33,774 bases of DNA. Origin: Luteimonas sp. Lineage in GTDB: Bacteria; Pseudomonadota; Gammaproteobacteria; Xanthomonadales; Xanthomonadaceae. Position numbers and translations under genes: made by a program. The stretch spans positions 1-33,774 of the forward strand of contig JACMKK010000078.1 in assembly GCA_014380115.1 (NCBI GenBank). Direction: 5' to 3'. Below are positions 14,260 to 14,802 of this stretch, piece after piece; within the stretch, counting starts at the first letter, position 1; the number at the start of each line of letters is the position of its first letter. The notes under the pieces were generated by a model. The model made no database searches. It saw only the letters and a list, made by a program, of their open reading frames with translations, and was not told the DNA's origin.

Positions 14260-14802
14260 ATGCTGCCCGTCGGTGCAGCAGTGGCGGATTCCGGCATGAC
14301 CGCAGCAAACCGGCTCCCACCCGATGCGATCGACGCGCTCGCGCGCGGCGAAACGATTGAGGCCATCAAGCGCGTGCGCGCAGCGACGGGCCTGGGGCTG
14401 AAGGAGGCGAAGGATCTCGTCGACGCTTATCGCCATCCCGGCGGCGGCGCGACCAGCCATGCACCCGGAAGCGGCCCGTCGATCGCAGGGCGCGCGCTCA
14501 ATGTGACGGACGCGTCTACTGCGGGTGGCGCACTCATCGTGCCGTCCGCCGCCGCGACGGCGCTGCAGCGCGGCAACATCATCGAGGCGATCAAGCTGAT
14601 CCGCGACGCGAACCGGCTCGGCCTGAAGGAGGCCAAGGACGCGGTCGAGCACTTGCGCACCGGACCGCAAACGCCTTCGCCATTGCACGCGCACCCGCGC
14701 CGGATGCCGACGGTGATGCAGGGCGATCGCGGCCTCGGCGGATGGATCGTGCTGGCCGCGGTGGTGATCACGGCGTTCGCGTGGTGGTTGTTGTCCTTGT
14801 AG
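14260..14802 (+). CDS. Tail-anchored protein with two ribosomal protein L7/L12 C-terminal-like motifs
   Basis: Motifs [35 protein letters not shown] and [35 protein letters not shown]; C-terminal TM [21 protein letters not shown]. Alternative start ATG 14296. Confidence 0.75.
   Translation: [180 protein letters not shown]

Follow-up and report, generated by a model that had tools for sequence, protein, structure and literature searches.

The question raised by this locus, a window of 33,774 nucleotides from Luteimonas sp. (contig JACMKK010000078.1), is what kind of protein is encoded by a small gene with two copies of a motif resembling ribosomal protein L7/L12, and what such a protein might do in the cell. 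A preliminary description, made from the sequence alone, interpreted the open reading frame (ORF) at positions 14260–14802 of the + strand as a tail-anchored protein with a duplicated motif similar to the C-terminal domain (CTD) of L7/L12. This ORF (ATG at 14260, 180 aa) is present in the ORF listing of the window, with a start that we corrected to the probable ATG at 14296, which gives a gene of 168 aa (14296–14802, + strand). The later ATG is the likely start because the homologues begin just before repeat 1, at the same point as ATG 14296; the 12 extra residues of the 180-aa version have no counterpart in the homologues. Counted from ATG 14296, repeat 1 begins approximately 7 residues into the protein. 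The GC-rich surroundings contain numerous overlapping spurious ORFs, as would be expected if the gene were a chance ORF or an alignment artefact, but the homologues have a conserved architecture and synteny, and the dN/dS values for four orthologue pairs were 0.09, 0.10, 0.25, and 0.31, which leaves this explanation a negligible probability. The repeat gene is under purifying selection.

The two 35-residue blocks at 14326–14430 and 14551–14655 were reported to be identical at 21 of 35 positions, and the translated sequences confirmed this count. The local alignment of one block with the other scored 91, whereas 20,000 shuffles gave a mean score of 20.9 (standard deviation 4.5) and a maximum of 50. 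The repeat unit extends beyond the block, to approximately 40 residues, with a Pro at its start and an additional N-terminal helix. Repeat 1 was placed at 14317–14433 and repeat 2 at 14545–14664 (both + strand), and each is predicted to form a three-helix half-L12 unit, that of repeat 1 with high pLDDT. Between them is a Gly/Ala/Ser-rich, probably flexible linker (14434–14544, + strand), for which the model pLDDT was ∼42–58. In DNA, only 66 of 105 positions of the two blocks are identical, and no tandem array was found at the DNA level in the region 12400–15000, so the duplication appears to be old. A tandem duplication still visible at the DNA level was rejected.

The likeness of these repeats to L12 was evaluated with profile searches. 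In Pfam, PF00542 (Ribosomal_L12; gathering score, 25.9) was by far the top family for the repeat protein, with an E-value of 1.9e-15 for the whole protein, 36.0 bits (E-value 8.6e-9) for block 1, and 26.2 bits (E-value 1e-5) for block 2. The coverage was partial, because profile positions 11–36 (block 1) and 13–37 (block 2) of 67 were matched. A profile constructed from 68 related repeats matched the L7/L12 chains in the PDB (up to 7e-9) and, apart from these, no other real family there. When compared with a bL12 profile in hhalign, the probability was 97.9% (E-value 5e-13), with an alignment over the hairpin only, and block 1 could also be aligned with the genome's own bL12 (28- versus 29-letter stretches). 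According to these searches, the likeness is specific to L12, rather than that of a generic helical repeat, and is confined to the α4–α5 hairpin of the CTD. Therefore, the earlier characterization of the blocks as L12-like holds, but as a likeness to the whole CTD it was too broad.

This restricted match also bears on whether the protein is a genuine bL12 paralogue, bound to the membrane and incorporated into the ribosomal stalk. The PF00542 scores exceed the gathering score, as a paralogue would require, but the second half of the CTD is missing, and Pfam and NCBIfam profile searches of the protein found no match to the L12 N-terminal dimerisation/uL10-binding domain. Furthermore, the bL12 equivalog model in NCBIfam (TIGR00855) gave 48.1 bits, well below its cut-off of 84.4, and the genome encodes a complete, separate bL12 on another contig. 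On the last two grounds the paralogue was rejected, and we consider it highly improbable.

The predicted fold was in agreement with a partial likeness. The AlphaFold2 model of the whole protein, built on a 20-member family alignment, had helices at residues 9–16, 20–31, and 35–46 in unit 1 and at 84–91, 95–106, and 110–122 in unit 2. It also had a linker modelled with low confidence and, at the C-terminus, a helix at 148–167. The mean pLDDT was 79 and the pTM was 0.35, a low value that is expected because the domains sit on a flexible linker. One unit modelled alone with the 68 repeats had the same three helices (core pLDDT, 91–93; pTM, 0.63). Neither the whole-protein nor the single-unit model contained any strands, and Foldseek searches of the PDB with both models returned nothing with E < 1 and no L12 among the matches. 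The matches were generic three-helix structures, including DNA-binding homeodomain-like ones, and all were non-significant. Because of the lack of strands and of any L12 or significant match, the blocks as modelled do not fold like the L12 CTD, and the full CTD fold originally suggested was rejected. In these models, the unit is a compact three-helix bundle made up of the L12 α4–α5 hairpin and a new N-terminal helix.

The single C-terminal transmembrane helix of the preliminary description was borne out by sequence. The last 19 residues (14743–14799, + strand) are the sole strongly hydrophobic stretch of the protein (mean Kyte–Doolittle value, 2.24; model helix pLDDT, ∼93), with no tail beyond. 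By sequence, the protein is thus of the tail-anchored type, with one hydrophobic helix at the extreme C-terminus and none elsewhere. The net charge across the 25 residues that precede this helix is +2, and the C-terminal anchor together with these basic residues hints at a cytoplasmic orientation of the units. A pattern search also identified a juxtamembrane motif, PTVMQGD (14707–14727, + strand), corresponding to the motif TVxxGD that occurs in 23 of 32 family members.

Relatives of the protein within the same taxonomic family have 1–3 units, a linker, usually TVxxGD, and, at the C-terminus, a hydrophobic helix that ends the chain or is followed by a short tail. Members with two units and a C-terminal anchor were also found elsewhere in the order, in other families. 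No paper on a membrane-anchored L12-type domain was found in the open-access literature, in which this family of half-L12 repeat membrane proteins appears undescribed. Two further arrangements were observed in the family. One genome carries adjacent paralogous genes, with two units and one unit (L138:7581–8558), and two other members have a degenerate third unit in which K70 and R73 are lost (L141:8645–9274 and L146:7240–7908).

In many of the relatives, the gene order is pyruvate kinase, class I aldolase, the repeat gene, a convergent cysteine-synthase-like gene, and an RND efflux pair. In the window, the conserved left neighbour is the class I fructose-bisphosphate aldolase at 9727–10731 (+ strand; PF00274), and the conserved convergent right neighbour is the cysteine-synthase-like PLP enzyme at 14855–15946 (− strand; PF00291). 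Here, the aldolase is separated from the repeat gene by a marR-emrA-emrB cassette (10903–14234, + strand; PF01047, HlyD, and MFS_1). None of the relatives compared was found to have emrB adjoining the repeat gene, which makes the presence of the MFS gene here probably incidental, and a shared operon function with emrAB was rejected. Two further elements were noticed in the window. An inverted repeat of 36 nt, whose arms are 94% complementary and separated by a 62-nt spacer, lies between emrA and emrB at 12509–12642 (TCGTCATTCCCGCGAAGGCGGGAACCC...) and resembles an element of the small MITE or intergenic repeat type. A short palindromic stretch (caggagcgccccctgggcgcggcgaccgctcctacc) at 14803–14843, right after the stop codon and between the convergent genes, is REP-like or terminator-like by eye.

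The repeat gene was present in 12 of 19 congeners, namely those in which the cysteine-synthase flank was recovered. In at least 8 other congeners, the aldolase and the cysteine synthase are 13–392 bp apart, with no repeat match. The gene is therefore accessory: it is conserved where kept and dispensable, as is any role that it has, because it is absent from many congeners. The interval between the aldolase and the cysteine synthase ranges from 13 bp to ∼3.9 kb among the congeners (L225–L243), with or without the repeat gene, and since both its length and its content vary, genes seem to be gained and lost at this site.

We also analyzed the residues of the L12 binding surface, numbering the repeat positions as in E. 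coli L12. Among 46 family repeats, position 70 was K or R in 43, position 73 was R in 40, and position 84 was K or R in 37. In a set of 22 repeats taken from phages and other taxa, K70 was present in 21, R73 in 22, and K84 in 22, and I69, K70, R73, L80, and K84 were near-invariant (20–22 of 22) in the repeats from other phyla and phages. The acidic positions 67, 74, and 88 were about equal to the basic ones in conservation, and the conserved charges may serve helix packing. Among the orthologues, K70 and K84 are often replaced, although positions 70/73/84 mostly remain basic. In several same-locus congeneric orthologues, I69, K70, and the GLGLKEAK core are gone. A profile of these surface-decayed orthologues reached bL12 with a probability of only 10% and the wider repeat profile with 99.4%, the latter value being partly circular since most rows of the former profile are also in the wider one. 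The orthologues nevertheless retain the helix pattern, i.e., Ala68, Ala83, Leu72, the Gly before helix 2, and the Pro of the first helix.

Outside this order, extra half-L12 proteins are sporadic, and most of 120 genomes sampled across the phylum have their bL12 only. Counts of the architectures found elsewhere are lower bounds. The module occurs with an N-terminal anchor in at least 11 sequences (L148, L173, L174, L191, L209–L211, and L213–L216) and in at least seven phage contigs (L114–L118, L126, and L133). Three half-L12 units with a hydrophobic segment were found in an Archangiaceae MAG and a Chloroflexi MAG (L034 and L035). In the former (L034:3319–5607), two neighbouring genes each encode a hydrophobic segment with three or two half-L12 units. 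No plasmid relatives were found. Gene 3 of Streptomyces phage LilMartin (L245), annotated as hypothetical, has a stretch 44% identical to repeat 1; it is near the genome end and adjoins an Lsr2-like gene. The half-L12 module is portable, as it is found again in phage proteins and, in bacteria, attached to an N-terminal or a C-terminal membrane anchor.

Based on these features, we infer that the protein inserts into the membrane, faces the cytoplasm, and has a docking role. It would be a small protein, tail-anchored in the inner membrane, that exposes two flexibly arrayed half-L12 units to the cytoplasm. Each of these would be a three-helix bundle in which the last two helices correspond to the L12 α4–α5 hairpin, and the hairpins would tether a partner from the cytosol to the membrane. 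The binding could be the sum of several weak contacts on flexible linkers, as with the mobile L12 CTDs of the ribosomal stalk; the presence of 1–3 units per chain, joined by linkers that are modelled with low confidence and probably flexible, fits such avidity. The GTPase-binding site of the bL12 CTD is formed by the positively charged helices 4 and 5 (PMC6753160). As L12 binds translational GTPases through the very surface that is retained in the hairpin, such an enzyme is the most plausible single candidate, and the favoured partner class would be an L12-binding G-domain protein (EF-Tu, EF-G, IF2, RF3, or a relative) bound via the basic hairpin face. A docking or interaction module of some kind is probable. 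The identity of the partner is speculative, and a translational GTPase is a rather doubtful candidate, since a strictly selected GTPase site should be better kept across the orthologues. We tentatively favour the combined reading, a membrane-tethered, cytoplasm-facing docking array built of L12-type hairpins with a translational GTPase as its favoured partner, at somewhat less than an even chance. In a stronger form, which we regard as unlikely, the protein would be a membrane-bound mimic of the ribosomal stalk, in which tandem hairpins capture translational GTPases as a switchable local factor pool or a translation brake.

A different partner or self-association is nearly as likely, because the L12 surface has decayed in some orthologues. 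The protein might be a scaffold whose units associate among themselves or with a dedicated membrane partner unrelated to the ribosome, and the L12 likeness would then reflect ancestry or shared packing in the absence of L12's function. The helix pattern persists in orthologues that have lost L12-specific surface residues, most syntenic members share TVxxGD rather than the hairpin surface, and the Foldseek matches are only generic and non-significant; on the other hand, I69, K70, R73, L80, and K84 are near-invariant outside the family, beyond what packing needs. We treat self-association as quite possible without preferring it. The half-L12 proteins of phage contigs and Streptomyces phages, together with the patchy presence of the gene at a variable site, could instead point to a phage- or mobile-element-derived modulator that would disturb the translation factors of the host or divert them, e.g., in stress or defence. 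However, the synteny extends across many genera of the taxonomic family, which implies a long vertical residence of the gene, and mobile genes are absent beside it within the window, so a modulator of this origin is improbable.

In the window protein, the L12 factor-binding hairpin occurs in a non-ribosomal setting, as a module of its own that is repeated in tandem and carries a membrane anchor. If the binding of L12 is retained, the protein would provide a docking place for translation factors at the membrane; to our knowledge, no docking place of this kind has been described. If it is not retained, the minimal hairpin would be a reusable protein-interaction unit, and PF00542 matches by themselves should not yield the annotation “ribosomal protein L7/L12.”

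Compared with known systems, the window protein shares with the bL12 CTD (PF00542/TIGR00855) the α4–α5 hairpin signature, over only approximately 26 of 67 profile positions, and, in both of its units, basic residues at what are positions 70, 73, and 84 in E. coli. Unlike bL12, it has no predicted strands, and it has an additional N-terminal helix per unit, tandem units, and a membrane anchor. The C-terminal parts of the models PRK06771 (NF005269) and DUF6793 (PF20593) match the same L12 hairpin, but the window protein scored far below the cut-offs of both (37.3 bits versus 90 and 12.8 bits versus a gathering cut-off of 27, respectively), and their architecture is reversed relative to it; several N-anchored relatives match PRK06771 weakly. 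The phage proteins that we examined are soluble by sequence, except for one with an N-terminal hydrophobic stretch (L131), and, unlike the window protein, none has a C-terminal anchor or TVxxGD. In phage proteins with a bL12 domain, the contact residues for EF-G and EF-Tu have been reported to be retained, and E. coli ribosomes were found to contain one such protein (PMC6375957). Like the window protein, they carry an L12-type domain in unrelated contexts; in theirs, the factor-contact residues are reported to be conserved.
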